This document shows, in pieces, positions 34,627 through 55,026 of a stretch of DNA of 64,000 bases. Made by a program: the position numbers and the translations under genes. A model generated the notes under the pieces. The model was given only the letters and a program-made list of their open reading frames with translations, was not told where the DNA came from and ran no database searches. This DNA is from Methanothrix sp. (GTDB lineage Archaea > Halobacteriota > Methanosarcinia > Methanotrichales > Methanotrichaceae), in contig JAPKXZ010000066.1 of NCBI GenBank assembly GCA_026394555.1, positions 1 through 64,000 of the forward strand, written 5' to 3'. How positions within the stretch are numbered: position 1 is the stretch's first letter; every line of letters starts with the position of its first letter.

Positions 34627-35277
34627 TCACAATATCAGCTTTCTTGCCAGGCATAGCTCAGCCAGGCTCATCTGTCCGGGAGCCGTGTTCTGTGTGACAA
34701 AGCAGTAGGTAAGAGCGGAGCCATAGAGGGGAGCTACGACGCGCAGATGCCTGCCCATCCGACCCATGGCGATCATGCAAAGAGGCGTATCTGCATCCAG
34801 CAAAAACTGCAAGATCCTTAAATTATCATGGAGGCTTTTGGGCGTCACGGCGATCTTGGCAATGGCAGCTTTTGTCCTCTTCATCTCCTCGTAGATGCCG
34901 GTCAATTGCAGATCATTCGGCATGCCCTGGAAGTCGTGATAGGAAACGATCACCGGTTTCATCATTCTGGCAATGGCATTATCTCTTTGATCCGCTAGGA
35001 GCTCCACATCCACGTAGTCGGCATAGTAGGCGGCCTTGATGAGCAGATCGATTCTCTCACTTTCGCTGCCCTGAAACATTCCCCCTTCCGTCCTGAGACG
35101 AGCCGTGGCGATGATCGGCTTGGCGGTGGCCTTTCGCACCGCCTTTATGGTTGGAAGAGGATCACCTGGGCCGAGCAGGTCCAGTCGCAATTCGATCATA
35201 TCTGCGTCGCCCGTGGCCTGAACATCTTTTTCTGCATCCTTTCCCAAGACGGCTACTATGCACGACCTGTTATTCAT
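34627..35277 (-). CDS. aroD: 3-dehydroquinate dehydratase, type I
   Basis: 216 residues from the ATG at 35277. TIM-barrel type I enzyme: RLDLLGPGD, PIIATAR, VIVSYHDF with the general-base His, and AKIAVTPKS with the Schiff-base Lys. Converts 3-dehydroquinate to 3-dehydroshikimate in aromatic amino acid synthesis. It lies 4 nt after the DHQ synthase gene, so the two consecutive steps are co-expressed. Confidence 0.93.
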   Translation of the reverse strand: MNNRSCIVAVLGKDAEKDVQATGDADMIELRLDLLGPGDPLPTIKAVRKATAKPIIATARLRTEGGMFQGSESERIDLLIKAAYYADYVDVELLADQRDNAIARMMKPVIVSYHDFQGMPNDLQLTGIYEEMKRTKAAIAKIAVTPKSLHDNLRILQFLLDADTPLCMIAMGRMGRHLRVVAPLYGSALTYCFVTQNTAPGQMSLAELCLARKLIL

Positions 35278-35281
35278 GATT

Positions 35282-36403
35282 TTATTGCTCCACAATGCTC
35301 TCCTCAATCTTCATGCCGAAATGGCGGGCCATCTCTTCCAGATGCACCAGCACCTCGTTCCCGACTTTGAGATCGGTCACCGGCCTGAGCGTGCCGTCGG
35401 AGCCGACCAGTTTTATGGTCTCGGCATTTTGCAGCAGAGTGCTTATCCTCTGCCCATTGGCCTCCGCCTCGATTAGGATCATGGGCCTCTTCTCGATCTT
35501 GGCGCGACCAACTATCGCCGTTCTGGCTAGGCCCTCCTTGCTGACGATGGTAACCTCATCTCCCGATTTTAGCTCGGAGAGGTAGCGCGTCTTCTCTCCC
35601 ACTCGAATGTAAGCGTGCACCGCGCCGGCATTCACCCGGAAGGGCCGAGCTGCCACGTAGGGGCTCTCTTCAGACTCACTGTGGACCAGGAAGAATCCTT
35701 TGGCCTGGGAACCAATGAGCATGCCCTCTCCAAAAGACATCATGCTGGCCGTGTCCACGCAGACCCGATCGCCCATGCCCACGGCTTTGACCGCGGTCAC
35801 CGTGGCTGAAACCAGCTCTATTTTGCCTTTTTCCGACTGCTCGACCGCGTCCATAACCCTCTTGATCTCAGAAGGATCACTGTTGTCCAGCAGCACTCCA
35901 TCGGCCCCCTTTTCCAGAGTAGCCAATGCCAGGCGCGCCTCCTCCGCCGTATTGACGCCGCTGATGATCTTGACTGGTGCACCCTGCAGTCCAGCAATCA
36001 TGTTCTCCAGGGGAATGACCTTCCAGTCCGTACCGATGACGAGAAGATAGTCTACAATCCGGCCCATCTCCACGGCGAACTCTTCGTACTTCTTGTTGGC
36101 AATGACCACCAAAGCAGCCTTTGTCCCAGAAACGGTCTTGACGAGAGCCCCGTCCAGAGAGCTGCTCTGCTCTTTCGGCAGAGCCACGGTTCCGTCGCCC
36201 TCTCCGTCCTTGCCCACAACGAAAATATCCTCAGTCCCTCTCTCTGCACCAAAGCCTGCCACCTTGATCTTGCCCAGCTCCCTCACGCGTTCGATGTTCT
36301 CTCTGTCCACCAGTACGCAGTCGAAGCCAGACTCGAGGGCGGTGGTGATCCTGGGTTTGATCTCCTGCCACGACCCTTTGGCCATGAGCCACTTCTCTTT
36401 CAT
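35282..36403 (-). CDS. 3-dehydroquinate synthase II (archaeal AroB')
   Basis: 373 residues. The archaeal enzyme that oxidatively deaminates and cyclises 2-amino-3,7-dideoxy-D-threo-hept-6-ulosonate to 3-dehydroquinate, bypassing DAHP. Blocks: GFGAERGTEDIFVVG, GADGVLLDNSDPSEIK, VGMGDRVCVDTASMMSFGEGMLIGSQAKGFFLVHSESEESPYVAARPFRVNAGAVHAYI. The aldolase-type first-step gene is not beside it in this window. Confidence 0.95.
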   Translation of the reverse strand: MKEKWLMAKGSWQEIKPRITTALESGFDCVLVDRENIERVRELGKIKVAGFGAERGTEDIFVVGKDGEGDGTVALPKEQSSSLDGALVKTVSGTKAALVVIANKKYEEFAVEMGRIVDYLLVIGTDWKVIPLENMIAGLQGAPVKIISGVNTAEEARLALATLEKGADGVLLDNSDPSEIKRVMDAVEQSEKGKIELVSATVTAVKAVGMGDRVCVDTASMMSFGEGMLIGSQAKGFFLVHSESEESPYVAARPFRVNAGAVHAYIRVGEKTRYLSELKSGDEVTIVSKEGLARTAIVGRAKIEKRPMILIEAEANGQRISTLLQNAETIKLVGSDGTLRPVTDLKVGNEVLVHLEEMARHFGMKIEESIVEQ

Positions 36404-36485
36404 GGGTTACACCAGGGCATTCCATTACTAATCTCTTTTGCCGGTTAAGCTTAAAAAATTTATACGGGGAGAAGAGAATGAGTCT

Positions 36486-37193
36486 ATGGGAAATCGGTTG
36501 GTTTATAGCCCTGTAAGCTTGCTTTTTATGCTACTACTTGCATTCTTGCTCTTTGCCGTGGTAGGCTTTCTATTTCTGGACCTGGCCAGGACGGCTTTTA
36601 CCAAGATCGGCTTTTCCTGGGGCCAGGCGCTCTTTGTCCTGCTCGCCTCCCTCCTAGGCAGCAGCATCAATATACCTGTGACTAATCTGCAGTGCAGCAC
36701 TCCTCTGGTACGGGAGCGACAGGTTCGGGCCTTCGGCATCGCTTACCGGGTGCCTGTAGTAGATGTAGTGAGCTGCCATACCCTGCTGGCGGTCAACGTG
36801 GGCGGAGCGGTGATACCAGCTCTCATCTCCATGGCGCTGATCTACCGGTTCCCTGAATCTCTGAATTATGCCCTCGTCTGCATTGCAATCGTAGCCGTCT
36901 TAACCAATCTTGTAGCCAGGCCCGTGGAGGGTTTGGGAATTGTCACACCCGCTCTTCTTCCACCCCTCAGTGCAGCAATCGCCGCGATCCTCCTGGTCTA
37001 TGTAGGGGGAGCTCCGCATGATCTCATCTTTATCATCGCCTATGTGGGTGGAACTTTGGGGGCGCTCATTGGCGCAGATATCCTGAACCTGAATAAGATC
37101 CGGGATCTAGGGGCGCCCGTAGCCAGCATAGGCGGAGCCGGAACCTTTGATGGTGTCTTTCTGTCCGGCCTGATAGCCGTGCTCCTGGTATGA
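36486..37193 (+). CDS. DUF1614 membrane protein
   Basis: 235 residues from the ATG at 36486. Several transmembrane helices and the same signature as 33312-34082 (TAFTKIGFSWGQALFVLLASLLGSSINIPVT; ASIGGAGTFDGVFLSGLIAVLLV). Divergent from the DHQ synthase gene. A longer start at 36438 is possible. Family function unknown; two paralogues flank the shikimate genes in opposite directions. Confidence 0.88.
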   Translation: MGNRLVYSPVSLLFMLLLAFLLFAVVGFLFLDLARTAFTKIGFSWGQALFVLLASLLGSSINIPVTNLQCSTPLVRERQVRAFGIAYRVPVVDVVSCHTLLAVNVGGAVIPALISMALIYRFPESLNYALVCIAIVAVLTNLVARPVEGLGIVTPALLPPLSAAIAAILLVYVGGAPHDLIFIIAYVGGTLGALIGADILNLNKIRDLGAPVASIGGAGTFDGVFLSGLIAVLLV

Positions 37194-37261
37194 GCGAAAA
37201 GACATGAGTGAAATGGAACGAATGGAAAAGAGCTTTAAGATAAACGTTAGAAAGGTAAAGC

Positions 37262-38521
37262 ATGAGCTTTAGGGGTTTCCTTGCTGATCTAAAGAAGGAC
37301 GGACTGCTAAAAGAGGTGCATGAATCCGTATCTTCCGTGCTCGAGGTTACGGATCGTGCCTGGGGAAAAGGCCCCATATTATTTGATAATGTGGATGGTC
37401 ATAAGTGCTGTCTGAACATCCTGGGAACGCGCCGTCTGCTGGCCCGGGCTCTGGGAATTGCCGACAAAGATCTGGTATCTCATCTCGCCTGCATCGGCTA
37501 CGAGGGTCCCGTTCGCGAGGTGGACTCTTCGCCCTTTATGGAGTGCGTCTCCAAGCCCGATCTCTCCCGGCTGCCCGTTCTCACCTATTTTAAAGGGGAC
37601 GGCGGCCCCTACATCACCTCAGCAATAGTCGTAAGCCAGTTTGAGGGAAAACTCAATGCCTGCGTGCACCGGCTCATGGTCTTAGGCAAAGACCGGCTGG
37701 CGGCGCGTCTCGTTCCAGGTCGGCATACTCATCAGTTCTATCAGGCCGCAATGGCCAAAGGGGAAGAAGTGCCTGTGGCCATCGCCATCGGCGTGGACCC
37801 GCTGCTGCTCATGGCCGCGTCCACGCGCGTTCCTCCTGAGAAGGAGTTTTCCTATGCCGCCGCTCTGCGGGGCTCTCCCGTGGAATTGATGCGCCTGGAG
37901 AACGGCGTTCTGGCCCCCCATGCCGAGATCGTGCTGGAGGGCTACATCACCGGCGAGCGTGCCAGCGAAGGGCCTTTCGTGGATATTACCGGCACCTGCG
38001 ATCTCGTACGGCAGGAGTCCGTCATCCGGCTCACCAGGATGATGACACGCGAGGATCCCATCTACCATGGCCTCCTGCCGGGAGGAGGCGAGCACAAGAT
38101 GCTCATGGGCGTGCCCTATGAGCCGCTGATTTACAAAGCAGCTTCAAAGGTTGCAAAGATCAAGAACGTCATCCTGACGGATGGCGGATGCAATTACTTC
38201 CACGCCGTGGTGCAGATCGAGAAGGAGACGGAAGAGGATGCCAGGCGTGTCATCGAGGCCGCCTTCCAGGCGCACGGCTCGCTTAAGCACGTCCTGGTGG
38301 TCGACACTGACATAGACATCTACGATCCGTGTGACCTGGAGTTTGCCATTGCCACGCGCATGAGGGCCGATGAGGATCTCGTCATCCACCCCAATGTGCG
38401 GGGCAGCACCCTTGATCCCAGGAGCGTGAATGGTATCACGACCAAGGTAGGAGTGGACGCCACCGCCCGGCTGGAGCGGCTCTGGAAGTTTCAGAGGGTC
38501 ACACCCCCAGGGCAGGGATAA
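37262..38521 (+). CDS. UbiD-family decarboxylase
   Basis: 419 residues, full length. UbiD-type blocks: MVLGKDRLAARLVPGRHTHQFYQAA, PVAIAIGVDPLLLMAAST, EGPFVDITGTCDLVRQESVIRLTRMMTREDPIYHGLLPGGGEHKML. These use prenylated FMN for reversible decarboxylation. Archaea with the modified mevalonate pathway use a UbiD homologue as anhydromevalonate phosphate decarboxylase, and this length fits that subgroup, but another substrate is possible. Confidence 0.9.
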   Translation: MSFRGFLADLKKDGLLKEVHESVSSVLEVTDRAWGKGPILFDNVDGHKCCLNILGTRRLLARALGIADKDLVSHLACIGYEGPVREVDSSPFMECVSKPDLSRLPVLTYFKGDGGPYITSAIVVSQFEGKLNACVHRLMVLGKDRLAARLVPGRHTHQFYQAAMAKGEEVPVAIAIGVDPLLLMAASTRVPPEKEFSYAAALRGSPVELMRLENGVLAPHAEIVLEGYITGERASEGPFVDITGTCDLVRQESVIRLTRMMTREDPIYHGLLPGGGEHKMLMGVPYEPLIYKAASKVAKIKNVILTDGGCNYFHAVVQIEKETEEDARRVIEAAFQAHGSLKHVLVVDTDIDIYDPCDLEFAIATRMRADEDLVIHPNVRGSTLDPRSVNGITTKVGVDATARLERLWKFQRVTPPGQG

Positions 38522-38540
38522 ATCCTCTTTGCTCTTTTGT

Positions 38541-38636
38541 TCAAATCTCCAGGTAGAGGCGTATACTAAAGACGACGCCCACCGCCAGGATTACTGAAAG
38601 CATAAGGGCCAGGATCTGCAACATTATCTCGCTCAT
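38541..38636 (-). CDS. 31-residue membrane protein coupled to ftsZ
   Basis: Short frame: MSEIMLQILALMLSVILAVGVVFSIRLYLEI. Its ATG overlaps the ftsZ stop in an ATGA (38633-38636), the classic coupled arrangement. The sequence is one transmembrane helix with charged ends. Not a known family; conservation next to ftsZ in relatives would confirm it. The region is too short for automatic gene callers. Confidence 0.55.
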   Translation of the reverse strand: MSEIMLQILALMLSVILAVGVVFSIRLYLEI

Positions 38637-39670
38637 TTTATCACATCTATCTGTTTTTCTCTTTGCGGCCGAAATCGCCGGGACTGGGATGGCGCCAGAA
38701 CCTGGGCCGATTTCACGCCCGTAATTATGGCCATCAGTCTCACCTTTCCGGTAAATTCGGGCCGAATTCTCGCCCCCCAGATGACGTTGGCCTTGGGGTC
38801 CAGTTCTTGAGTAAGCGCCCCGGCTATGGCAGCTGCCTCTTTCATGGTCATATCCGGCCCGCCGGTCATGTGCAGAAGGCAGGCCCCAGCACCGCGATAG
38901 TCTACATCGAGCAGGGGATTTTTCAAAGCGGCGCGCACGATCTTCTCCGGGCTGCTTTTCATCTTGCTTTCGCCCACAAACATGAAGGATGCACCACCGG
39001 CGCTCATAACGGTACAAACGTCGGCAAAGTCCAGATTGATGAGGGAGGGACTTGTCAGAGTCTCGCAGATGCCCTGCACGATCTCGGCGATGATCTGATC
39101 GACGACGGAAAAGGCGTGCTGAAAGGGCAGATGGGGCGCGCATTCTAAAAGGCGGTTGTTATCCAAGACGATTGAGGTGTCGGCATAGCCAGAGAGCGCC
39201 TCCAGCCCCTCTTCGGCCACAAAGATGCGCGCCCTCTCCAGGTGAAAGGGCGTGGTCACCATGGCCACCACAATTGCGCCCCGCTCTTTGGCCAGGCGGG
39301 CCACGACCGGGGCCGATCCCGTGCCCGTGCCGCCGCCCAGACCTGCAATAACGAAGACCAGGTCGGCTCCCCGCAGCATGCTCTCCAGCTCGGCTGCTGC
39401 CAACTCAGCCGCCTTTCGGCCTACCTTGGGATCGCCGCCCGCGCCCATGCCCCTGGTGAGCTTTTGCCCAATCAGGATCTTCTCATCGGCCTGGGCCGTT
39501 TTTAGGTGCTGGTTGTCCGTGTTGATGGCCACGGTCTTTGCCCCGGCTAGACCCATCCTGGCCAGCCGGCTCACGGTGTTATTGCCTGCTCCCCCACAGC
39601 CGACGACCAGGATCTTGGGCATGCCAAAACCGTCTTCGTATTCTTTAGACTCACGTAGATCTGACTGCAA
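38633..39670 (-). CDS. ftsZ: Cell division GTPase FtsZ
   Basis: 345 residues. G-box GLGGGTGTGSAP (near 110-121), T3-type GCGGAGNNTVSRL, and synergy loop NLDFADVCTVMSAGG. C-terminal domain GAGACLLHMTGGPDMTMKEAA. Polymerises at midcell in archaeal division. Many methanogens carry two FtsZ types; this one has a short N-terminal extension before GMPKILVVG. Confidence 0.95.
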   Translation of the reverse strand: MQSDLRESKEYEDGFGMPKILVVGCGGAGNNTVSRLARMGLAGAKTVAINTDNQHLKTAQADEKILIGQKLTRGMGAGGDPKVGRKAAELAAAELESMLRGADLVFVIAGLGGGTGTGSAPVVARLAKERGAIVVAMVTTPFHLERARIFVAEEGLEALSGYADTSIVLDNNRLLECAPHLPFQHAFSVVDQIIAEIVQGICETLTSPSLINLDFADVCTVMSAGGASFMFVGESKMKSSPEKIVRAALKNPLLDVDYRGAGACLLHMTGGPDMTMKEAAAIAGALTQELDPKANVIWGARIRPEFTGKVRLMAIITGVKSAQVLAPSQSRRFRPQREKQIDVIK

Positions 39671-39862
39671 TTGCCTTTTTCCCCCTCATTGCTAGATTAA
39701 CTAAATAGTGATATATGTTAATAATTATTGCGGACAAGTGCTTGAACGCTTTAAAGTCGTTTGTAGACGATTGAGACAACGACCCATCTACGCCCCTCAG
39801 CACTCCAATTGCTTCTCCAATCCCTAGGTTTAAATCTTTTGAAGATTCAATACATACCTGAC

Positions 39863-40117
39863 ATGTTCTGTGAATACATTCATGCGGCGCTGTCCAAAGC
39901 AACCTATGAGATCATTGAAGACGAAGAACCATTTTATGGAGAAATTTCAGAACTGCGAGGTGTCTGGGCAATCGGAAAAAACCTGGAAGAATGCCGCGAA
40001 AATTTAAAAGGCGTTGTCGAAGGCTGGATCGCTTTGAGGTTGAGGTTGGGGCTGGCAATCCCTCCTGTCGGCGGGCATACCATAGAAACACCTAGCAGGG
40101 TTGAAGCAGTTGTCTAG
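39863..40117 (+). CDS. hicB: HicB-like antitoxin (intact pair)
   Basis: 84 residues: MFCEYIHAALSKATYEIIEDEEPFYGEISELRGVWAIGKNLEECRENLKGVVEGWIALRLRLGLAIPPVGG and a short tail. Closest relative in the window is the orphan HicB at 20885. It binds and blocks HicA and usually represses the operon. Overlaps hicA by 17 nt. Confidence 0.9.
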   Translation: MFCEYIHAALSKATYEIIEDEEPFYGEISELRGVWAIGKNLEECRENLKGVVEGWIALRLRLGLAIPPVGGHTIETPSRVEAVV

Positions 40118-40337
40118 GATTACAAATGTCTCCTGGAACGAGCTGGCCAGGCGACTGCGGGATCTTGGCTTTGAAGGACCATATCTCAGCAGCGGCCCGC
40201 ATCCTTACTTTATGAAAAGAGGGGATCTTACCGTTGATCTACCAAATCCGCACAAGCAAGATATTGGCATTGGTCTCCTCATGAAGATCCTGAAACAGGC
40301 AGAGGTCAGTCGCGAAGAATGGCTTTCCGCTGCATAA
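40101..40337 (+). CDS. hicA: HicA-like mRNA interferase toxin (intact pair)
   Basis: 78 residues from a TTG at 40101. HicA dsRBD-like fold: SWNELARRLRDLGFEGPYLSSGPHPYFMKRGDLTVDLPNPHKQDIGIGLLMKILKQAEVSREEWL. The His in GPHPYF is in the position of the catalytic His. HicA cuts mRNA without the ribosome. hicB precedes hicA here. The intact copy shows what the remnants near 21 kb have lost. Confidence 0.88.
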   Translation: MKQLSRITNVSWNELARRLRDLGFEGPYLSSGPHPYFMKRGDLTVDLPNPHKQDIGIGLLMKILKQAEVSREEWLSAA

Positions 40338-40364
40338 ATATGTGCTTTTTTGCGCGAGGTGTCT

Positions 40365-40775
40365 ATGTCATTATTACGGGGTGCAGATGATCTGGCAGAG
40401 TTCATTGCCGAAAATTACAAAGGCCGCGTGGTCGAGGTGGGGGTGGGCTACTTTGCCGATGTGGCCCTGGGCCTGCAAGCTCGGGGCCTGGATGTGGTGC
40501 TCACCGATAAAGAGGAGCGGCTCCTGGGCAGCCTGCGGGTGGAAAAGGACGACATATTCTCGCCCCGCCTGGAGCTTTACCGGGGGGCAAGCCTGCTCTA
40601 CTCCATCCGCCCCCCTCTGGAGCTGCAACTGGCCATGGGCCTCTTGGCGGCGAAGGTCGGCGCGGATGTCCTGGTCCGGCCATTGATGGATGAGCTGGCG
40701 CAGTTGCCAGGCTTTGCCCGGCGGCTGGTCAATCGCGGGGAAGCGAGGTTCTATTTGTTTTCGGCGAGGGATTAG
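40365..40775 (+). CDS. UPF0146 family protein
   Basis: 136 residues from the ATG at 40365 (GAGGTG a few nt upstream). Rossmann-like opening VVEVGVGYFADVALGLQARGLDVVLTDKEE, then LYRGASLLYSIRPPLELQLAMGLLAAKVGADVLVRPLMDE. The family is archaeal and of unknown function. Its 3' end from about 40717 is duplicated at 46171, beyond the island that follows. Confidence 0.88.
   Translation: MSLLRGADDLAEFIAENYKGRVVEVGVGYFADVALGLQARGLDVVLTDKEERLLGSLRVEKDDIFSPRLELYRGASLLYSIRPPLELQLAMGLLAAKVGADVLVRPLMDELAQLPGFARRLVNRGEARFYLFSARD
40717..40775 (+). repeat. Att-like direct repeat, left copy (3' end of UPF0146)
   Basis: A 24-bp core at 40717-40740 is identical to 46171-46194, and the flanking 30-35 bp up to the stop are similar to 46195-46230. 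The intact gene is on this side, as after integration at a gene 3' end. Confidence 0.65.
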
Positions 40776-40850
40776 TTAGCTGCTTTCCCAAAAGAAAGCT
40801 GATGGTTATACTTCAGTCCGTTATACTGGCAAATATTTTATCGCTGTATC

Positions 40851-43800
40851 CTACTCTTGCCATTCCGACAATTTTTGCTGCACTTTTTCAGCATATGGGC
40901 TTTCGATTTGCTTGAAAATCCTAAGTGCCGCCTTTGCATGACCGATCGCCTCAGGCCGATGGTCTAGCTTTTCAAGCACAAGGCTCATGTTGAATCGGGC
41001 ATCGCCTTCTCCCCGGAGGTATTCGATCTTCCAGGCGATCTCTAACGATCGTTCGTAATAATCGATGGCTTTGCGAGTCTCGTCCAAGTCAGCGAAGACT
41101 TTGCCAAGGTTACATAGAACTTCGCACTCATTCTTTCGGTACTCGATCTTGCGAACAATCGCAAGCGATTGCTCATAGTATTCTATTGCCTTGTTTGTCT
41201 CCCCTAAGACCGCATAGGCTTTTCCGAAATTGCATAGATTTTCTCCTTCAATCCATGGGTCCTCGATCTCGCGGCTGATAGCCAGCGCCTGATCGTAATA
41301 TTCGATGGCCTTGCGAGTCTCGCCAAGATCAACGTAGGCTTCGCCCAGGTTGCCCAGGTCAGCTCCTTCGCCCCTTCGGTCGCCTATCTCGTATGAGATG
41401 GCAAGAGCTTGCTCGTGGTATTCGATGGCCTTGCGTACCTCGCCCAGATTAGCATAGGCACCGCCCAGGTTGCCCAAAGCACTTCCTTCCCCCCGTCTGT
41501 TGCCGATCTCGCGGCTGATGGCCAGCGCCATATCGAGGTACTCGATAGCCTTGCGTACCTCGCCCAGATTAGCATAGGCACCGCCCAGGTTGCCCAAAGC
41601 ACTTCCTTCGCCCCGTCTGTTGCCGATCTCGCGGCTGATGGCCAGCGCCATATCGAGGTACTCGATAGCCTTGCGCACCTCGCCCAGATAGATGTAAGCA
41701 TCGCTCAGATTGCTTAGGTCAATTCCTTCGTCCCTTCGGTCGCAGATTTCACGGCTGATAATCAGTGCCAGATCGAAGTACTCGATGGCCTTGCGGGCGT
41801 CGCCCAGATCAGCATAGGCACCGCCCAAGTTGCCCAAAACGGTTCCTTCGCCCAGTCGGTCGCCTATCTCGCGACTGATGGCCAGTGCCTGATCATAATA
41901 TTCGATGGCCTTGCGTACATTGCCCAGATTTGCATAGGCACCGCCCAGGTTGCCCAAAGCACTTCCTTCGCCCGATCGGTCGCGGATCTCGCAGCTGATG
42001 GCCAGCGCCTGATCATAATATTCGATGGCCTTGCGGGCATTGCCCAGATTAGCATAGGCACTGCCCAGGTTGCCCAAAACGGTTCCTTCGCCCAGTCGGT
42101 TGCAGATCTCACGATTGATGGCCAACGCCTGATCATAATATTCGATGGCCTTGCGAGCATCGCCCAGATCGGAGTAGGAATTGGCCATACTCGTTAGAAT
42201 GGCGCCTTCTTGTGCTGGTTTATTTGATCGCCTCGCAGCGCACAACGAAACATCAAGCCAACGAATTAGACTGCATGGATGCAATCGCAATGAAAGGATA
42301 CTCGCCGAATATGCATAACTAATGCAGAGGGAGGCTGCATTCACATTTGTCTTGGCATTTTTCTCAACCCACGTCTGCCCGGCTTGAATATTCGCCAACT
42401 CTCGATCGAGGATTTCCAGCCCAAGAATAGTGTTGTCTCCACCTTTTTCATAAAGATCATGAGCTTTAGAAAGAACTTTCAGGTAACGCACGAAATAGCG
42501 TTGCAGGGCCATGGCATGTGCGGCTTCGCCATCCTCTTTCAGCAGACTTTTAGCTGCGAAGATTCGTGCCAGATCGTGTAAACGATATCGACTATTGCGT
42601 TCGTAGAAATCAACCAGGCTCCAGCGCACTAATTTGCTCAATCTTTTATGGCCCTTATCCTTGCAGAGAAATTCTTCTGCATTGGCATCGAAATCGGCAG
42701 GAAAGATCGAAAGCAGCCGGAAAACACGTGCTTCATCTGGTTTAAGGCGACGATAGCTTAGGTTGAAGCTAGCCTCAACATCAAGATCAACACCTTCCCC
42801 ACCAATTCGCTCAAGTCTTGTCCGTTCGATGCGCAATTCTTTTAGGTATTCAGCCAATAAGAGGTCATGCTCGTTAGCTAACAGGCTACTCGCTGCCCGC
42901 AATGCCAATGGAAGGTGGCCACAAAGTCTGGCCAGCTCCTCTGCATGGTCACCAATTCTACTGGCGATCTTGAGCAGTAGGGCGCATGCATCGGAAGGCT
43001 GCATAACATTGAGGTCCTTTTCCTTCAATCCCGGCAGGGTGAATTTCTCGCGCGAAGTCACGATTAGGCCACATGAAGAGGGGGGAATCAATGGTCGAAC
43101 TTGATCATCATTCGCCGCATTGTCAAGCAATATCAGAACTCTCTTGTTGTGCAACTTTGAGCGATATGATCCACTCAGCTCAGACTCACTTAATGGCAAT
43201 CGGGCATCAGTGTCGTATGCGTGAATGACTTGTGCCATGGCCCCGGCAGCTGTCAGAGGCTCATCGCTTGTTCCATTCATATCAACCAAGATTTGACCAT
43301 CCGGATAACGATCGACCAATTTCTCAGCCAACTTAAACGCCAAGGCGGTCTTTCCAATTCCACCCATGCCGCGAAGGCCGGTGATGGTTGCACCCTGATT
43401 GCTCGCGCCTTGATTAAAGTGATCGAGTAGATCCGTTAGATCATCATCACGACCAGTGAAGTCCGCTGGTGGTGGAGGAATCTGATGGGGAATTTGAGAG
43501 CTGGAAGCTTCGCTTGGCGGCGTTTTAATAGGAATATCTATCGCATCTTCTTGTGAACAGTCAGCAGGATCAATGGGGGCAGAAATAAATTTAGGAATGA
43601 TAAAAACAAACATTCCATTTGGTGGGTGCGAATCAATGTCTTCTCTCCATCTATTCAATGAGTCACTCCAGCAACGCAAGAAAACGACACATCGTCCACT
43701 ATCAAAGTCCAGATGAACAAAATTATATGCGTTACTGTAACGCAAGTCATCGATGTAACGACGATAGTAGGAAGCTCCCGCAGGAATTATGACACAATCT

Positions 43801-44579
43801 CCTATCGTACTCTTAATCACAGAAACTTGGGGCTTATGCTGGTGACCACGGAGAATGAAATCAGTTTCCCTCATAAGGCGCGATTCAACCTTATTACGAT
43901 CGAACTCTGCTAACCATTCAAATGGATGATGGAGAATTGCGATTCTAACATCGGCTTTAGAGATTTGCTTCAGAGATCTATGAATCTGTGGTTCGCCCAC
44001 AAGAACATATCTCTCATCATCTATCTTGTCTGTTGAATCTAGATGGCGCCCACACATCCAAGCAGAGTTGAGTCCAAGAAGGGCTATCGTCTTGTTATCT
44101 ATTGGCAATATGCGAACATTTGCGTAATCAGGTTTGTCCTGACCAGTGTAGGTATTTACAAAGTCAGAGAATGCATGAAATGGTCCAAGGAGGATCTCTC
44201 TCTTTCGTTTGTCCTCAAGCCATTTCTGTACCTCGATATTGGAACTAAGAGGCTTTGAAAGCACGGGAGGAAGGTCTTTTAGATCATCTCGGTTCAGATC
44301 GTGATTTCCTGGTACGATGAAAAGCCTGTCAGGGCTTAATCCTCCTGTAGCTTTCAAAATATGTTCGAATAATTCTTCCTTGGCTGCTTGGTACTCTTCC
44401 GGTTTCGCACTATTGGCAACATCACCGCTGAAAATGATAAAATCTATCTTAGCTAGATCGGGACTGATGGCTTCTCTTTTTTCCAAATCCTCCAACAGTT
44501 TGTCCCGCACTACTTCGCGATCAAATTCTTTGCTCCCCTGATGCCAATCAGAAAGATGAAGCCAAGTCAGTCCCGTCAT
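40851..44579 (-). CDS. STAND protein: metallophosphoesterase, NB-ARC ATPase, 11 TPRs (candidate defence protein)
   Basis: 1242 residues. N-terminal calcineurin-like phosphoesterase (1-330) keeps all metal ligands: D11-x-H13, GD53, GNHD 91-94, HH 217-218, GHQH 245-248. A linker rich in Pro (350-375) leads to an NB-ARC ATPase: Walker A GMGGIGKT (404-411), Walker B LILLDNA with Asp486, and RxL-type SREKFTLPGL. A winged-helix region follows, then 11 TPRs of 40 residues from about 790 (unit: GNLGGAYANLGEVRKAIEYLD). Two adjacent units are identical. STAND proteins oligomerise on ligand recognition and switch on the effector; here that would be a nuclease or nucleotide hydrolase. Divergent from the AbiEi-like gene. 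Confidence 0.9.
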   Translation of the reverse strand: MTGLTWLHLSDWHQGSKEFDREVVRDKLLEDLEKREAISPDLAKIDFIIFSGDVANSAKPEEYQAAKEELFEHILKATGGLSPDRLFIVPGNHDLNRDDLKDLPPVLSKPLSSNIEVQKWLEDKRKREILLGPFHAFSDFVNTYTGQDKPDYANVRILPIDNKTIALLGLNSAWMCGRHLDSTDKIDDERYVLVGEPQIHRSLKQISKADVRIAILHHPFEWLAEFDRNKVESRLMRETDFILRGHQHKPQVSVIKSTIGDCVIIPAGASYYRRYIDDLRYSNAYNFVHLDFDSGRCVVFLRCWSDSLNRWREDIDSHPPNGMFVFIIPKFISAPIDPADCSQEDAIDIPIKTPPSEASSSQIPHQIPPPPADFTGRDDDLTDLLDHFNQGASNQGATITGLRGMGGIGKTALAFKLAEKLVDRYPDGQILVDMNGTSDEPLTAAGAMAQVIHAYDTDARLPLSESELSGSYRSKLHNKRVLILLDNAANDDQVRPLIPPSSCGLIVTSREKFTLPGLKEKDLNVMQPSDACALLLKIASRIGDHAEELARLCGHLPLALRAASSLLANEHDLLLAEYLKELRIERTRLERIGGEGVDLDVEASFNLSYRRLKPDEARVFRLLSIFPADFDANAEEFLCKDKGHKRLSKLVRWSLVDFYERNSRYRLHDLARIFAAKSLLKEDGEAAHAMALQRYFVRYLKVLSKAHDLYEKGGDNTILGLEILDRELANIQAGQTWVEKNAKTNVNAASLCISYAYSASILSLRLHPCSLIRWLDVSLCAARRSNKPAQEGAILTSMANSYSDLGDARKAIEYYDQALAINREICNRLGEGTVLGNLGSAYANLGNARKAIEYYDQALAISCEIRDRSGEGSALGNLGGAYANLGNVRKAIEYYDQALAISREIGDRLGEGTVLGNLGGAYADLGDARKAIEYFDLALIISREICDRRDEGIDLSNLSDAYIYLGEVRKAIEYLDMALAISREIGNRRGEGSALGNLGGAYANLGEVRKAIEYLDMALAISREIGNRRGEGSALGNLGGAYANLGEVRKAIEYHEQALAISYEIGDRRGEGADLGNLGEAYVDLGETRKAIEYYDQALAISREIEDPWIEGENLCNFGKAYAVLGETNKAIEYYEQSLAIVRKIEYRKNECEVLCNLGKVFADLDETRKAIDYYERSLEIAWKIEYLRGEGDARFNMSLVLEKLDHRPEAIGHAKAALRIFKQIESPYAEKVQQKLSEWQE
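41461..41700 (-). repeat. Recent 120-bp tandem duplication within the TPR coding region
   Basis: 41461-41580 and 41581-41700 differ at only a few positions and encode identical TPR units. The flanking units share the 120-bp period with more divergence. It shows recent unit copying in the sensor part of the STAND gene. Confidence 0.9.
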
Positions 44580-44759
44580 TCTTCCCTCATTGATTGAAGA
44601 TTGTGGCGGAGTAGATATTACTTCCTACTGGTTGGAGAATCTCTTCCACCTTATCTTTATTCCATTTCTCCACGATAACTCTGAAATTCCATGAGAAGGA
44701 CCTCTTGTGCTTATTAGACCTGGGCATTCCTGTCACAGATGACAAACAAAAAGCATATC

Positions 44760-44852
44760 TATCACAGATACCTTTATTATCATATCACAAAAAACTGATA
44801 CCACATATCACTGATACATTTATAAACATATCAGTAGATAATGATATGACAC
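44760..44852 (+). promoter_or_regulatory. Four 23-bp-spaced TATCAC direct repeats and TATA box upstream of the AbiEi-like gene
   Basis: TATCAC begins at 44760, 44783 and 44806, and TATCAG at 44829, exactly 23 bp apart; each unit also holds a GATA. A TTTATAAA box at 44819-44826 lies within the third unit, 27-34 nt before the ATG at 44853, so the message is probably leaderless and a protein on the repeats would cover the promoter. A weaker TGTCACAGATGACA lies at 44731. Likely operators of the downstream winged-helix protein; an iteron-like role is also conceivable. Confidence 0.7.
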
Positions 44853-45875
44853 ATGAAGACAATCTCACCTTACGACCCAGAGCTAATCAGTTTGCTACGC
44901 ACACAGCTTGGATTCAGTAACAGCGCCGTAATAAGGCAGGAGAGTACATTCCGGGATTCCTACCCCATTTTGTTTGACCAGATCATTGAAGACGGCACCA
45001 AAACGTACATAGTCGAACTAAAACGGGTCGTTCGCCTCGATTCACTCTCCCAGCTCGGTTTTCTCAAGCTGCTCTTGAAAGATAGCGCCTTTCGTACCTC
45101 CGATATCGAATTCATCATGGCAGGAAAACGGATAACACCGGAAGCTAAAGACGCCGCAGAAAAGACCGGCATTCAATTCATCAAGCTGCCTGCTGATTTG
45201 AACCTGGAAGAGGGCCACGGCAAGCCCAGCACCATACCCGTGAAACTCACATCCCCCAAGTCCTGGCAGGTTATCTCGCACCTCCTCAAGATGAAGGAGG
45301 CTTCCATCCGGCAGCTTTCAATTGAATCCGGGGTCTCATATGGCTGGAGCCATGCAACCGCAAAGGCTCTTATTTCAAAAGGGATCGCATCAGACGCAGG
45401 AGGCCGTCTAAGGATCGTTGATATCAACAAGCTCATCAACGGCATCGCATGGGAACGCCCCTTCGAGAGGCTCTTTGCCCAGGAGATTAAGATAGCTGCC
45501 AAGAACGCCATTGTGCTTGCCAAAGAAATTTGCCTTGTATGCGATGAGCAGCAAATTGCCTGTGCTTTTACCAGCTTCACCGCAGGAGAAATTTACACAG
45601 GCTACCGCGCAAGGCACGATTCGGTGTACCTGTATCTTGATAAGAAAAACATCTCCGAGCTTGCCGAAATGTTTGACGTGCGGACCGAAGGAGAAATCGC
45701 GGTACGAATCTATGCTCCAGATCGCGATGTGTTCAAGGATCGCAGGACATTCTCTGTCGAGGGAGTTTGGCTCGCCTCACCGGCAATGGTCCTGCTTGAT
45801 TGTGCAGGCCAGGGATATGCCGGCCGCGACCTCACACAAAAACTGGTGGAAATCTATGACCAATTGTGGCACTAA
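44853..45875 (+). CDS. AbiEi-like antitoxin/regulator with possible PD-(D/E)XK N-terminus
   Basis: 340 residues. Residues 1-115 may be a restriction-endonuclease-like fold: FDQII followed by TYIVELKRVV, an E-x-K motif. A winged helix-turn-helix follows (about 140-195: IRQLSIESGVSYGWSHATAKALISKGI). The C-terminal 140 residues resemble the AbiEi/type IV antitoxin domain, ending VWLASPAMVLLDCAGQGYAGRDLTQKL. No AbiEii toxin follows. It probably represses itself through the 23-bp repeats. Stands within the island bounded by UPF0146 3'-end copies. The domain naming is by eye. Confidence 0.65.
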   Translation: MKTISPYDPELISLLRTQLGFSNSAVIRQESTFRDSYPILFDQIIEDGTKTYIVELKRVVRLDSLSQLGFLKLLLKDSAFRTSDIEFIMAGKRITPEAKDAAEKTGIQFIKLPADLNLEEGHGKPSTIPVKLTSPKSWQVISHLLKMKEASIRQLSIESGVSYGWSHATAKALISKGIASDAGGRLRIVDINKLINGIAWERPFERLFAQEIKIAAKNAIVLAKEICLVCDEQQIACAFTSFTAGEIYTGYRARHDSVYLYLDKKNISELAEMFDVRTEGEIAVRIYAPDRDVFKDRRTFSVEGVWLASPAMVLLDCAGQGYAGRDLTQKLVEIYDQLWH

Positions 45876-45882
45876 CCGATTT

Positions 45883-46010
45883 CTCACGCGAAGCCGCGAA
45901 GACGCGAAGGCTAATAAACACGATCGCATGCATTGGACGAAAAATAGTAACAAATCAATTATGGTCAGGAATTTATTTCATGAACTTCGCGGCTTCGCGC
46001 CTTCGCGTGA
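45883..46010. repeat. Inverted-repeat element of CGCGAAG units
   Basis: TCACGCGAAGCCGCGAAGACGCGAAGG at the left has a reverse-complement partner at 45985-46010, with about 75 nt between. The unit CGCGAAG recurs every 8-9 nt. It begins right after the AbiEi-like stop codon. Possible MITE-like or recombination element; related motif at 20340-20376. Confidence 0.75.
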
Positions 46011-46160
46011 AACAGTATTTTGTGCCAAGCTGCAAATGGTGCAAGAAAAATAGAATCAAAGCTCTACCAACACGGAATCACGAAGAGCCAATTTTTCTCG
46101 CAGCCCAGCATTTCTGGAATGCTGCCAACTCTGCCGCCTCTTATCGTAGTAGCACCGCTA

Positions 46161-46230
46161 CCAGCCTTTTCCCGGCGGCTGGTCAATCGCGGGGGAGGCC
46201 AAGTTTTACCTGTTTTCGGCAAAGGCGTAG
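46161..46230 (+). pseudogene. UPF0146 3'-end fragment (right att-like copy)
   Basis: 70 bp alignable to the last 70 bp of the UPF0146 gene, including an identical 24-bp core at 46171-46194 and ending in a TAG at 46228. Similarity outside the core is about 70-75%, so the copy is old. Translation in the aligned part gives FSRRLVNRGGG against FARRLVNRGEA. No upstream part of the gene is present. Confidence 0.7.
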
Positions 46231-47473: not shown

Positions 47474-47671
47474 TCAAGCCGTAATCTTTGTCTTGGCGAT
47501 GTACTTGATCAGCTTCGAGCCTATCCTGGCCTTCCTCTGAATCTGATCGGCCACATCGTCCGCTGATGCGCCGCCGGCGGCCAGGGCGCGAATCTCCTTG
47601 TATTTGAAATTTTGAGGTTGCAAAGAGTTATCCCCTGGGAGATAGAATAGACATTTGTGAGCCGTGATCTA
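47474..47671 (-). pseudogene. Possible 3' fragment of an unknown gene
   Basis: A minus-strand frame with no ATG reads YLPGDNSLQPQNFKYKEIRALAAGGAS then ADDVADQIQRKARIGSKLIKYIAKTKITA and stops at 47474-47476. Composition and the helical tail look protein-like, but a stop just upstream and the overlap with the start of the ATPase gene leave no complete gene. No family recognised. Confidence 0.25.
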
Positions 47672-50173
47672 TCCCTGTTTTGGTCCATTCCACCAGATGA
47701 GCTGCTCAAATTGCTCGATGCAAGGGAGACGGGGCTGGATGAAAAGGAGGCCCAAAAAAGGCTCAAGCAATACGGTGCTAACCTGCTTAAACCTCGCAAG
47801 AAGTCTTATTCTATCCTTTTGCTGCTGGCTCAATTCAATAGCCCCATAATTCTGCTGCTGGTATTTGCGGCAGGCCTTTCCTTCTATCTTCATCAAGTGA
47901 CTGGCGCATCGATTATCCTGATCATAGTTTTCATCAGCGGCCTGCTAGGTTTCTGGCAGGAGAGGAGAGCCGCAGATGCAGTAGCCGGTCTGCTGGCCAT
48001 AATTCAGATCAAAGCCTCTGTTCTTAGGGACGGAAAACACAATGATGTCCCGGTGGAGTATGTCGTGCCCGGAGACATTATAGTTCTGAGGGCAGGAGAT
48101 ATCGTCCCGGCAGACTCCAGGATTCTTCTCTGCAAAGATCTCTTCATCAACGAAGCATCACTTACCGGAGAGACCTATCCGGCTGAGAAAATGCCTGAAA
48201 TTCTGGACAGTGAAACGCCTCTAAGCAGGCGCATTAATTGCCTTTTTATGGGTACAAACGTTGTCAGCGGGACAGCTACCGCGGTAGTCGTCCATACAGG
48301 AACGAATACTCAGTTCGGACGCGTATCTCAACGACTTGGGCTTCGCGAGCCTGAGACTGAGTTTGAACGAGGGGTCAAACACTTCGGCTACCTGCTTCTT
48401 GAGATAACGATGGTTCTGGTAGTGGCCATTTTTGCCATAAACGTATACCTGGCCCGTCCCGTTGTAGACTCTTTCCTCTTTTCTTTGGCCCTGGCCGTTG
48501 GCCTGACCCCCCAACTCCTTCCGGCCATTATCAGCATAAATCTGGCCCACGGAGCCAGGCAAATGGCCACCCACAAAGTCATAGTCAAACGTCTGGCTTC
48601 GATCGAGAATTTTGGGAGCATGAACATCCTATGCACCGACAAGACAGGGACACTGACGGAAGGGACGGTAAGGCTCAACAGCGTTCTGGATCTTGAAGGT
48701 AACGAGAGTGAAGAGGTCTTTCTCCTGGCGTATGTCAACGCCTTCTTCGAGACCGGGTTCTTTAATCCTATCGACCAAGCCATTCTCAATTTTCGTAAAC
48801 TCGATGTTTCAGGCTTGAAGAAATTGGATGAGGTGCCTTACGACTTCATTCGCAAGCGTCTGAGCATTCTGGTATCAAATGGCTTTGAGCACACTATCGT
48901 GACCAAAGGTGCCCTGGTCAATGTCCTGGAGGTCTGTACATCCGCCATGAGGGGCCAGGAAGTTGTGGATATCTCTATGGTCAAAGAACCGGTCCAGGCC
49001 AGATTCCAGGAGCTTAGCGGCAAAGGATATCGAGTTCTGGGCCTGTGCAAAAAGACGGTGAAATCCGATGTACTCCTGGCCAAAGATGAAGCGGAGATGA
49101 CGTTCTTGGGATTCCTGGTCTTCTTCGATCCACTCAAGGAGAGCATCGCACAGACCATTCGCGACCTGTTCCAATTAGGGATTGGCCTCAAGGTAATCAC
49201 CGGCGACAACCGACTTGTGGCCGCCAGTATCATCAAACCGTTAGGCCTGCTTGGTGGTAGAGTCCTTACCGGCCCAGAAATTAGTCGGGAAAGCGACGAA
49301 GCCCTGCAAAAGCTAGTTCAGGTGGTTGATGTCTTTGCCGAGGTGGAGCCAAAACAAAAGGAGAGGCTTATCCTGGCCCTGCGAAAAAGTGGAAACGTGG
49401 TGGGTTATATGGGCGATGGTATCAACGACGCCTCCGCCCTTCACGCCGCAGATGTCGGCATCTCTGTAGAGAGCGCCGTGGATGTGGCCAAGGAGGCCGC
49501 TGATATTGTCCTCCTGGAAAAAGACCTCAGTGTGCTTAAGCAAGGCGTCATAGAAGGGAGAAAGACCTTCTCCAACACCATGAAGTACGTCTTCATGGCT
49601 ACATCCGCCAACTTCGGAAACATGTTAAGCATGGCCCTGCTTTCCCTGTTCCTTCCCTTCCTCCCCCTTCTTCCCACACAGGTTCTGCTCACTAACCTCT
49701 TGACCGACCTTCCTGAGATGACCATTGCCGGAGACAGGGTGGATCCCGAACTGGTATCACACCCAAGGCGATGGTCAATTGGATTCATCAGGAACTTCAT
49801 GGTGACCTTCGGACTGCTGAGCTCTTTATTTGACTTCTTGACCTTTGGTGCGCTCTTATTCCTGCTACACGCCAATGTGGATCAGTTCAGAACCGGCTGG
49901 TTCATCGAGTCGGTGGTTTCGGCCTCCTTTGTCGTGCTGATCATTCGCACCAGAAGACCATTTCTTTCATCCAGACCAAGCCGTTCATTGATAGTAGTGA
50001 CGCTTTTGGTTGGCCTAATGACTTTCCTCTTGCCGTTCAGCCCGCTATCGGAGCCCTTTGGCTTCACAAAAATTTCACCTTATTTTCTGGCCGTCATAGT
50101 AGTTATTGTGGGGATTTACATCGCATCGGCTGAGATTGTCAAGAAGATCTTCTATCGTAGGGAGATATCCTGA
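47657..50173 (+). CDS. mgtA: Magnesium-translocating P-type ATPase
   Basis: 838 residues from a GTG. P-type IIIB layout: ten helices, actuator motif [11 protein letters not shown], phosphorylation motif [11 protein letters not shown] (Asp328), nucleotide-binding KGA and MGDGINDA hinge, and the C-terminal set [23 protein letters not shown] typical of MgtA/MgtB. Imports Mg2+ at the cytoplasmic membrane. Its 3' end overlaps the promoter region of the TBP gene. Confidence 0.93.
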
Positions 50174-50200
50174 TAAACTCACATTCGTGCCAACGCCGGA

Positions 50201-53843: not shown

Positions 53844-54302
53844 ATGTGGCGTATGTCCGACAAAGTCTCAGATGTCAATAAAGCGATAGAAGAACATGGA
53901 ATTGAAGCTATTGCTAACGAAGAAGTAAAAGTTGTTGTTGAACGCGTCGGCAGTAGGTCGGAGTTTTACCGAGTAATTACGCCAGACATCTTCATGGGTG
54001 GCATGAAAGAGGGATTCATAGAGATGATCGCGGTGTCATCCAGAACGAATGCCATCGAGTATTTTTTATCTAGCAAACAGAAAACGGAGCTAATTGAAGA
54101 AATCAATATTAAGCTCTCTCCGCAACAGGCCAAAAAATTGACACAATGGTTATTACGGAATCTGATATTATATGAGAAGGCGTTTGGGAAAACCACACTG
54201 ATAGAGGAATTAACGCCTGAACAATTGATAAATGTTGAGGATAGGAATACTTTGCAAAATGAAGTAAACACGAAGTTGGATGAACTAATTTCCGGCATTT
54301 GA
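53844..54302 (+). CDS. Hypothetical protein of the AT-rich island
   Basis: 152 residues from the ATG at 53844; the ATG at 53853 is equally possible. A TTTATATTT near 53822 makes a leaderless start plausible. Mixed alpha/beta N-terminus (VKVVVERVGSRSEFYRVITPDIFMGGMKEGFIEMIAV) and a helical C-terminus (LSPQQAKKLTQWLLRNLILYEKAFG). No family recognised. First of three tandem genes. Confidence 0.6.
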   Translation: MWRMSDKVSDVNKAIEEHGIEAIANEEVKVVVERVGSRSEFYRVITPDIFMGGMKEGFIEMIAVSSRTNAIEYFLSSKQKTELIEEINIKLSPQQAKKLTQWLLRNLILYEKAFGKTTLIEELTPEQLINVEDRNTLQNEVNTKLDELISGI

Positions 54303-54324
54303 TTGTAATAATGAGGGTATTACT

Positions 54325-54780
54325 ATGGCTGGAATGGTGGGTGTAGCCCCAAAAAATTGTGATTTGTGGGTGGGTCATATATTTCCGGGGTCTATTGGAA
54401 AAACATGCGAAATCTCCCGATCCGATCTTGAATTAATAACCCAGAAAAGAAAAATTAAAGGATACTCTGAAATAGAAAGAGTTACAAATAACGGTGAAAT
54501 TATGATTTATGGTCTGGACGGAGGTGACAGCATACTACCATCTGAGGTGGAAAGGAGTTTTGAAGTATCTCTAACAAGGAGTGAAATCATAGAGAGTATA
54601 TCAGGGGAGAATCTGCCGAGTATAGCGTCGCCTGAAATAATTACCTCTGCTAAAACAGATATTATGGTCGCAATTGCTGAGATTGCTAAGAGAGAGAACG
54701 TCCTGCTTACTGAAGAAGAAAAAGAGAAATTGGCGAACTTCTCTGTATATCTGTTAAAAAAATTAGGGTCGGTGGTTTGA
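54325..54780 (+). CDS. Hypothetical protein of the AT-rich island
   Basis: 151 residues starting 22 nt after its neighbour. N-terminal beta-rich part (CDLWVGHIFPGSIGKTCEISRSDLELITQKRKI; YGLDGGDSILPSEV) and a helical C-terminus (AIAEIAKRENVLLTEEEKEKLANFSVYLLKKLG). No known family. Probably cotranscribed with 53844-54302 and 54781-55026. Confidence 0.6.
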   Translation: MAGMVGVAPKNCDLWVGHIFPGSIGKTCEISRSDLELITQKRKIKGYSEIERVTNNGEIMIYGLDGGDSILPSEVERSFEVSLTRSEIIESISGENLPSIASPEIITSAKTDIMVAIAEIAKRENVLLTEEEKEKLANFSVYLLKKLGSVV

Positions 54781-55026
54781 TTGGCGGTCCCAGATCCAGC
54801 AACCATTTTGAAATTAATACCAATATTAGCTAACGCAGCTCAGAAACTTGGACTAACTCCTCAGCAGGCAGTGTCGGCTAGTAACTCTCTTAGCTCAGTA
54901 CTAGAATCCGCAATTAAAGAACTTCCAAAAAACAAGCTGATAGATACGTTAAAAGAAAAGAGCATTACGGCCACAAAGAAACATTTTTTAATTCCCACAA
55001 CATCAATCACAGTAAAGTTTGAATAA
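54781..55026 (+). CDS. Small helical hypothetical protein
   Basis: 81 residues from a TTG directly after the TGA of the previous gene, so likely coupled. Helical, with repeats of hydrophobic residues (ILKLIPILANAAQKLGLTPQQAVSASNSLSSVLESAIKEL), ending in a beta-like FLIPTTSITVKFE. No family recognised. Confidence 0.5.
   Translation: MAVPDPATILKLIPILANAAQKLGLTPQQAVSASNSLSSVLESAIKELPKNKLIDTLKEKSITATKKHFLIPTTSITVKFE

Follow-up and report, generated by a model that had tools for sequence, protein, structure and literature searches.

A fused metallophosphoesterase as the likely effector of a probable NLR-type conflict protein in Methanothrix

Among the genes on a 64,000-nucleotide stretch of a Methanothrix sp. 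contig (JAPKXZ010000066.1; the whole stretch is called the window here), one encodes a protein that joins an N-terminal metallophosphoesterase (MPE) domain to an NB-ARC switch and a C-terminal TPR array (Table 1). It is probably an NLR/STAND-type conflict protein, most likely an antiviral one, for which we infer a role in phage defence. The original prediction had placed an effector-switch-sensor gene here; the gene is real and lies on the minus strand, no strand having been stated before, and the residue numbers given for D53, H93 and K410 are correct. Metallophos (aa 7-250, E 4.5e-14), NB-ARC (aa 394-571, E 3.2e-8, 33.6 bits against a gathering score of 23.5) and TPR_12 (E 6.1e-67) all exceed the Pfam gathering score, and the HaaT and AfsR profiles match at aa 355-715 and 354-726. 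Both marks of a STAND/NLR protein are present, namely an NB-ARC match above the gathering score with a Walker A motif, and an N-terminal effector with C-terminal repeats. The layout is backed by these domains and by relatives that join the same NB-ARC-TPR part to different conflict effectors. A structure model of aa 1-790 is poor (pLDDT 56) and supports no domain arrangement.

Table 1. Features of the MPE-NB-ARC-TPR gene and its site, in positions of the window
Feature	Position	Strand	Remark
MPE-NB-ARC-TPR protein P0001, 1242 aa	40851..44579	-	ATG start matches homologue N-termini
Metallophosphoesterase effector domain, aa 1-326	43602..44579	-	Pfam PF00149
Metal motif I, D11-W-H13	44541..44549	-	
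Metal motif II, G52-D53	44421..44426	-	
Metal motif III, G91-N92-H93-D94	44298..44309	-	
Metal motif IV, H217-H218	43926..43931	-	
Metal motif V, G245-H246-Q247-H248	43836..43847	-	
Variable linker, aa 327-372	43464..43601	-	without the FDQ(R/K)GQ...TNI motif of sister proteins
NB-ARC switch and winged-helix region, ~aa 373-720	42420..43463	-	outer limits approximate; Pfam, HaaT/AfsR profiles
Walker A GMGGIGKT, aa 404-411 (K410)	43347..43370	-	
Spacer ahead of repeats, aa 721-785	42225..42419	-	helical only in a low-confidence model
TPR sensor, 11 units, aa 786-1225	40905..42224	-	
~5.4-kb stretch missing from relative G013	40776..46148		insertion, or deletion in G013
3' end of neighbouring 141-codon gene (40350-40775), left copy of imperfect direct repeat	40695..40775	+	
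Right imperfect copy of the 141-codon gene's 3' end	46149..46230	+	colinearity with G013 resumes
340-aa ORF in the ~5.4-kb stretch	44853..45875	+	

As had been predicted, the MPE domain retains all metal ligands: the DxH, GD, GNHD, H and GHxH set of the calcineurin-like phosphoesterase superfamily is complete, and the same residues stand in 15 of 15 aligned MPE relatives, the window protein included, the sixteenth row being a fragment that stops before the last four metal residues. The tree of these domains is resolved in small part (3 of 12 inner branches starred). The domain matches the DS8 profile (aa 8-299, E 1.2e-31) and the PADLOC profile PDC-S60 (aa 7-257, E 5.5e-34). Its AF2 model (pLDDT 78.9, pTM 0.84) finds its closest fold in chain B of PDB 9a6c (Z 29.4, 306 aligned residues, 22% identity), an entry entitled YydD-YydB, integrative model, whose chain B we take to be YydB; SMPDL3A aligns over 273 residues (Z 19.6). 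The fold comparison (Foldseek/VIA) picks no single substrate, and a cyclic or free nucleotide is slightly favoured over nucleic acid. Nuclease action in the manner of Mre11/SbcD, with viral or host DNA as the target once the protein has oligomerised, is rather unlikely. The SbcD model TIGR00619 matches at E 4.6e-7, though with 29.9 of 77.65 bits it stays below the cut-off, and SbcD membership is rejected; Mre11 chains reach Z ~17, within 3 of SMPDL3A, purple acid phosphatase and Rv0805, which score equal or higher in a shared fold that shows no function. One matching PADLOC effector model is described as an endonuclease. A single pattern scan of IMG/VR contigs gave 27 pattern matches, none of them an MPE relative.

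The sensor consists of ten units of exactly 40 aa (aa 786-1185) and a divergent eleventh (aa 1186-1225), which scores 28, whereas 300 shuffles of aa 1-785 reach at most 19.5, with a matrix derived from the protein's own ten units. Neighbouring units are up to 90% identical in amino acids, and TRF reports 7.6 copies of 120 bp with 81% match in the DNA that codes for them. By the same count, complete MPE homologues on the window-type chassis (n=5) have 6, 8, 8, 9 and 11 units, and a sister caspase gene in the window's genome has one. The sensor had been called expanding, which stands as far as copy number varies among homologues (6-11 units); nothing beyond this variation is supported.

The window's switch is patchily distributed: with E 1e-20 as the limit, 19 of the 50 family genomes have it. 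Related NB-ARC-TPR genes of Methanotrichaceae differ in what they carry: MPE, caspase, SIR2, TIR, CHAT, membrane-like segments or an amyloid-type motif. Within the window's genome, related switches bear caspase and SIR2 and, more distantly, PNP; in relatives, TIR, CHAT and MPE+TIR effectors are found. At one conserved locus an MPE in five genomes is matched by SIR2 in the window's genome, with the remainder 69-85% identical. The same genome has MPE on a second architecture, and a pair of DarT and macro-domain genes lies 1.1 kb upstream of it. The switch tree contains 36 of the 41 matches listed; four fragments (G016:C98, two of G026:C68, and G021:C391) and G011:C24, broken by TAG, were left out. 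The effector labels HEL, CHAT and one CASP row were taken from a separate upstream ORF, TM and HEL were assigned by eye, and similarity alone gave the labels of G021:C79 (TIR) and G029:C45b (caspase); Pfam scans of two TM rows, and of one upstream gene of HEL type in each of two genomes, gave nothing above cut-off.

The window protein looks like a mosaic, with an MPE domain and a C-terminus of the kinds found in the MPE/SIR2 lineage and a switch of another lineage. Trees and an indel place a type-A insertion near LERIGGEGVDL in its switch. A simple effector swap as the only history is rejected, since the C-terminal end, too, falls with the MPE/SIR2 lineage. Several results weaken the mosaic reading, among them the poorly resolved MPE tree. 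In the C-terminal tree (12 rows), clade A without the window protein is not a single clade. A placement of the window switch basal to all 20 clade-B rows is not rejected by the AU test (p 0.10), nor is it in a 12-row set (p 0.35), values that are optimistic because the groups were picked after tree inspection and the 12-row set omits clade-A rows discordant in an earlier tree. By sliding identity the type-A signal lies mainly at aa 547-666 and aa 487-576 are slightly nearer clade B (mean 57-58% vs 51%), so that the exchange may have covered less than the whole switch. Effector, switch and sensor parts appear to have been reshuffled between genes in these archaea. Tentatively, and somewhat short of even confidence, the Methanothrix NLR family may consist of three modules that are exchanged independently. 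On this reading the window protein would be an MPE receptor that kept its effector and sensor end while its central NB-ARC switch was wholly or partly replaced; SIR2 would have replaced MPE at the ancestral locus in the same genome, and one cell would hold both products plus caspase and PNP versions.

A fixed housekeeping neighbourhood had been named beforehand as a finding that would count against an immune role. For the window gene the place is not fixed: the empty site in G013 rules out a housekeeping gene in a fixed place, and other conflict-type genes, an HD-CE protein in G021 and a trypsin-KAP protein in G019, occupy the site in relatives. The sister lineage is fixed in part, lying near one HAD gene in six genomes, one with the effector swapped; four more with enough sequence have none there, and three are uninformative. 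The flanks of the window gene are housekeeping genes, with no large defence island around it, and GC content (0.483 in the ~5.4-kb stretch, 0.556 to its left, 0.48 to its right) is not decisive. The 340-aa ORF resembles NucS weakly (E 1.8e-4, well short of the cut-off) and has no Pfam or PADLOC match; present in 7 of 50 family genomes, it is not tied to the MPE-NB-ARC-TPR gene because several carriers are without the window's switch family.

At rest, the ADP-bound NB-ARC, winged helix and TPR superhelix would keep the protein inactive. Binding of an invader or stress protein by the TPR superhelix would trigger ATP exchange and ring-like oligomerisation, which would bring the N-terminal MPE domains together and switch them on; hydrolysis of a nucleotide-type phosphodiester or phosphate substrate would then stop the cell before the virus spreads. 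For a conflict role speak the intact domains and motifs and the match to the profile of DS-8 (which needs its MPE and NTPase residues), the effector exchange on related switches, patchy presence and accessory location, the amyloid peptide in the G001 sister and the same-genome MPE downstream of the DarT/macro-domain pair. Against it speak the housekeeping flanks, the AfsR/HaaT resemblance of the NB-ARC-TPR part and the lack of an MPE relative in the IMG/VR scan. A signalling role is possible because the NB-ARC-TPR part also resembles the regulators AfsR and HaaT, which match the switch best among profiles and among the sequences of solved structures. It would sense an endogenous cue, and the MPE would lower a cyclic nucleotide as regulatory output, with which the HAD-gene site of the sister lineage agrees; the exchange of the effector for caspase, SIR2, TIR and CHAT, the patchy presence, the varying repeat number and scores that reach neither regulator's cut-off make this improbable. 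That the gene is the remnant of a mobile cassette, inactive or in decay, as the imperfect flanking repeats and the one-TPR caspase sister might suggest, is very improbable with 1242 codons open and every metal and Walker A residue intact.

As a probable conflict protein, the window protein brings a phosphoesterase effector of the type validated in one bacterial STAND protein into an archaeal family of NB-ARC-TPR proteins, one member of which already has an experimentally studied amyloid motif (reported in PMC8086366). Its relatives offer a natural series for comparing effector, switch and sensor singly, and the orthologous locus, where five genomes have MPE and another has SIR2, comes close to a natural domain-swap experiment. 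The question of the MPE substrate can be approached through a second, divergent enzyme. In the accessible part of the literature searched, with subscription journals and most bioRxiv preprints outside its scope, no MPE-NB-ARC-TPR protein of Methanothrix was met.

Several known systems share parts of this architecture. AfsR and HaaT resemble the switch, although the window protein falls far below their equivalog cut-offs (291 of 1430 and 310 of 1125 bits) and the matched parts of their profiles are without MPE. PDB 9a6c is a two-protein complex, not fused to NB-ARC-TPR. The proposed likeness to Avs is unsupported: with E 0.01 as the limit the protein matches five PADLOC models (two named TPR, PDC-S60, Effector and C3a156), and none bears that name, though the library's Avs naming may differ. 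Like the STAND/GTPase conflict systems described in PMC7159879 and PMC8195603, the window protein has a calcineurin-type effector in a variable slot and an AP-ATPase with TPRs, whereas MoxR, vWA, GTPase and FGS domains are absent from the 10 neighbouring ORFs scanned. It belongs to the same NB-ARC-TPR family as the Methanothrix NLR AEB69175.1 (G001 row, 56-60% identity over the switch), whose archaeal NLR peptide with a BASS3-like motif is reported to aggregate as amyloid (PMC8086366); the G001 sister protein contains this peptide letter for letter. The N-terminal motif of AEB69175.1 is described as pairing with a motif in an upstream gene (PMC8086366), whereas the window protein has a fused MPE instead, and a BASS-type motif was found in it neither by an ad hoc regular expression built from sister motifs, which missed some plain sister copies, nor by reading the linker by eye. 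A phosphoesterase effector on a STAND protein had been thought uncommon and perhaps untested, which is no longer tenable: calcineurin-type effectors on such proteins were predicted earlier (PMC7159879, PMC8195603), and the phosphoesterase-NACHT protein DS-8 (NCBIfam NF053861) is reported to guard E. coli against phage, with loss of defence in MPE and NTPase mutants (PMC13092281). DS-8 membership is rejected for the window protein (109.4 bits against an NF053861 equivalog cut-off of 790, over aa 8-299 only), which differs in being archaeal and in having NB-ARC with 11 TPRs. Like DS-8, it is a single protein with a STAND NTPase; its N-terminal MPE belongs to the DS-8 family of such domains and keeps its catalytic residues, and both MPE models resemble SMPDL3A (for DS-8 as reported in PMC13092281).

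The window protein, a calcineurin-like metallophosphoesterase (MPE) fused to NB-ARC and TPR repeats, is encoded in a single open frame (see the table). The residues D53, H93 and K410 named in the original prediction are present with that numbering. The five-motif metal site is complete (D11, H13, D53, N92, H93, H217, H246 and H248), and its residues are invariant in all 15 aligned MPE rows, a sixteenth row being a fragment. The eleven TPRs that had been claimed are ten exact 40-residue units and a divergent eleventh, which scores 28, whereas 300 shuffles of residues 1-785 never exceeded 19.5. Adjacent units share up to 90% amino-acid identity, and in the five complete MPE homologues on the same NB-ARC-TPR chassis this method counts 6, 8, 8, 9 and 11 units.

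Positions of the features discussed (L, DNA stretches of relatives or of the same genome)
Feature	Position	Strand	Remark
Window protein ORF	40851-44579	minus	1242 codons, ATG start
Metallophos	aa 7-250		Pfam
NB-ARC	aa 394-571		Pfam
TPRs	about aa 786-1225		Pfam
1075-aa ORF	23123-26350	minus	STAND-like; AAA_16/ATPase_2 at about aa 361-478, TPRs
503-aa ORF	18723-20234		without Pfam match
340-aa ORF	44853-45875	plus	weakly NucS-like; related loci L140:802-2563, L162:6704-8465
P-type ATPase gene	47657-50173	plus	missing at the G013 equivalent
Low-GC segments	18001-20000, 54001-56000		GC 0.39-0.40 (0.51 window-wide)
MPE-TIR ORF, G029	L099:2087-3775		fusion in one ORF
TIR-NB-ARC-TPR ORF, G029	L099:2-2083		follows the fusion
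Small helical genes	L022:946-1392, L082:2652-3203, L098:2080-2565, L110:1148-1591 and similar		ahead of NLRs; paired FDQRGQ motif at ends

With the switch (NB-ARC/winged-helix part) as query, 41 matches were found in 19 of 50 Methanotrichaceae genomes, in 4 of 11 genera, and 36 of them gave usable rows. The effector is MPE in ten rows (nine genomes), TIR in four, caspase in three, and SIR2 and CHAT in one each; eight further rows have a small upstream helical gene, five have membrane-like segments and four are unlabelled. In the relative G029, several effectors stand in line ahead of one switch. The switch tree is divided into clades A and B of 16 and 20 rows, respectively (100/100).

Effectors appear to be replaced in place. 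The clade-B chassis lies 0.6 to 3.0 kb from a HAD phosphatase gene (HAD by Pfam) in six genomes, where it carries MPE in G013, G015, G016, G019 and G021, and SIR2 in the window's genome. The far-side gene is the same metallo-hydrolase (named by eye) where the contig continues (L011, L102 and L107), and in G013 it is found on a second contig (L174). Compared without the effectors, the SIR2 protein and the MPE proteins of G013, G015 and G021 share 83%, 82% and 85% identity over truncated parts of 552, 557 and 281 residues; for G016 and G019, whose MPE proteins are complete, the values are 69% and 71%, repeats included. Among eight further stretches, those of G008, G005 and G023 are too short to judge, and the eighth is the G013 continuation. 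Those of G010, G003, G001 and G017 have room enough and show no chassis match of at least 120 residues beside the HAD gene, except for TPR matches of 27-32% identity about 8 kb away in G001.

The window protein itself is read as a mosaic. Clade B holds nine of the ten MPE rows and the SIR2 row; the window row belongs to clade A, where its companions carry caspase, TIR, CHAT or the amyloid motif. An insertion of about nine residues in the switch (LERIGGEGVDL in the window) is present in all 16 clade-A rows, that of the window among them. It is absent from the 20 clade-B rows, of which one carries a two-residue version. In the last 140 residues, the window protein joins four clade-B MPE/SIR2 rows (98/99 with 12 chosen rows; 97/99 for the same five-row set with all 25 complete rows). 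Grouping of the window switch with the MPE/SIR2 rows (AU p 8.6e-5) and of the window C-terminal end with six clade-A rows (p 0.0005; 12 chosen rows) was rejected, while a switch position at the base of clade B was not (AU p 0.10), these p values being optimistic because the groups were chosen after the trees had been seen. By sliding identity, the switch is nearer to clade A mainly at residues 547-666 and slightly nearer to clade B at 487-576. From these sequence comparisons, the MPE and the sensor end would derive from one lineage and the switch, in whole or in part, from the other. Other proteins of a wider C-terminal tree mix A and B labels as well (six changes, four forced by starred branches), so that module exchange looks habitual in the family.

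The window's genome (a 2.53-Mb draft in 75 contigs) contains a caspase domain (contig C36) and SIR2 (C55) on the same NB-ARC-TPR part, and a PNP-type phosphorylase on a more distant relative (C35). A second MPE (C15; 58% identity over aa 1-326) belongs to a 1459-aa protein with an unrelated C-terminus that has no Pfam match. Some 1.1 kb upstream of its gene is a macro-domain gene, itself preceded by DarT (L009:4434-6227), which suggests a small defence cluster. The 1075-aa protein of the window, without Pfam match in its first 360 residues, is probably another STAND protein.

The gene is flanked by housekeeping genes, dehydroquinate synthase and dehydratase, UbiD and FtsZ on one side, and P-type ATPase and MoaE on the other. 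G013 is 94% identical to the window over 34627-40130 and 91% over 40365-40770, lacks 40776-46148, and resumes at 46149 (89%). The preceding gene's 3' end (40695-40775) is imperfectly repeated at 46149-46230 (74-85% in two pieces), and G013 has one copy of it versus two in the window; this fits an insertion that brought along a copy of this end, a deletion in G013 being a possible alternative. The site is occupied in G021 by a 1559-aa protein with HD-CE, a conflict-system domain, in G019 by one of 1142 aa that has a KAP NTPase domain and, more weakly, a trypsin-like match, and in G003 by one of 1203 aa with no match above the cut-off. A homologue of the 340-aa ORF also follows there in G019 and G021, where the next gene resembles a nucleotidyltransferase (by eye); the two are possibly a toxin-antitoxin-like pair, of which the window shows the first gene and no sign of the second. 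Next to this site the P-type ATPase gene, where colinearity with G013 skips from 47505 to 50185, is also accessory.

In all eight rows with a small upstream gene, that gene ends in FDQ(R/K)GQ...TNI (regular expression), and a similar motif starts the NLR in four (regular expression) and, by eye, in the other four. The G001 NLR contains, with every residue identical, the Methanothrix soehngenii peptide AEB69175.1_5_29, which was shown to bind Congo red and to give FTIR spectra of the amyloid type (PMC8086366). The family of the window protein thus already has an archaeal NLR member whose amyloid is likely a signalling one, and the small helical genes are candidate archaeal amyloid-signalling effectors of the Bell type (so labelled by analogy with PMC8086366). 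The motif was not found in the window protein, where MPE occupies that place.

By analogy, the TPRs would bind a trigger, ATP-driven oligomerisation would follow, and MPE would then be activated. An AF2 model of MPE (6 sequences; pLDDT 78.9, pTM 0.84) is nearest to 9a6c chain B, a YydD-YydB entry (Z 29.4), followed by SMPDL3A (19.6, 273 aligned), purple acid phosphatases (18.6), Rv0805 (17.9) and Mre11 (17.3, 230 aligned). This ranking of a predicted fold would fit nucleotide and nucleic-acid substrates alike and does not choose between them; nucleotides are slightly favoured here because the authors of DS-8 compare their metallophosphatase to SMPDL3A (PMC13092281).

MPE is rare outside Methanotrichaceae: at a threshold of E 1e-15 it occurs in 6 of 392 genomes sampled across the phylum, including two Methanotrichaceae. 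In one of them, G134, its fusion partner is an NTPase, NACHT-like by eye. Related domains occur in 36 plasmid records (24-31% identity among the 30 listed). The DS-8 profile covers aa 5-857 of one plasmid protein of 869 aa, with 190 of 790 bits and so below the cut-off, and another record adjoins a GASH gene, in agreement with GTPase-centric systems described in PMC7159879. DS-8, a single metallophosphatase-NACHT protein, is reported as validated against phage in E. coli, where mutants of its MPE and of its NTPase lost defence (PMC13092281). Its profile is matched by the window MPE (aa 8-299, E 1.2e-31); over its full length, the window protein reaches 109 bits versus 790 required. The predicted protein is real and its interpretation sensible, although it is not the first phosphoesterase STAND protein, DS-8 being earlier; to those already known it adds an archaeal NB-ARC-TPR setting in which module exchange is visible.
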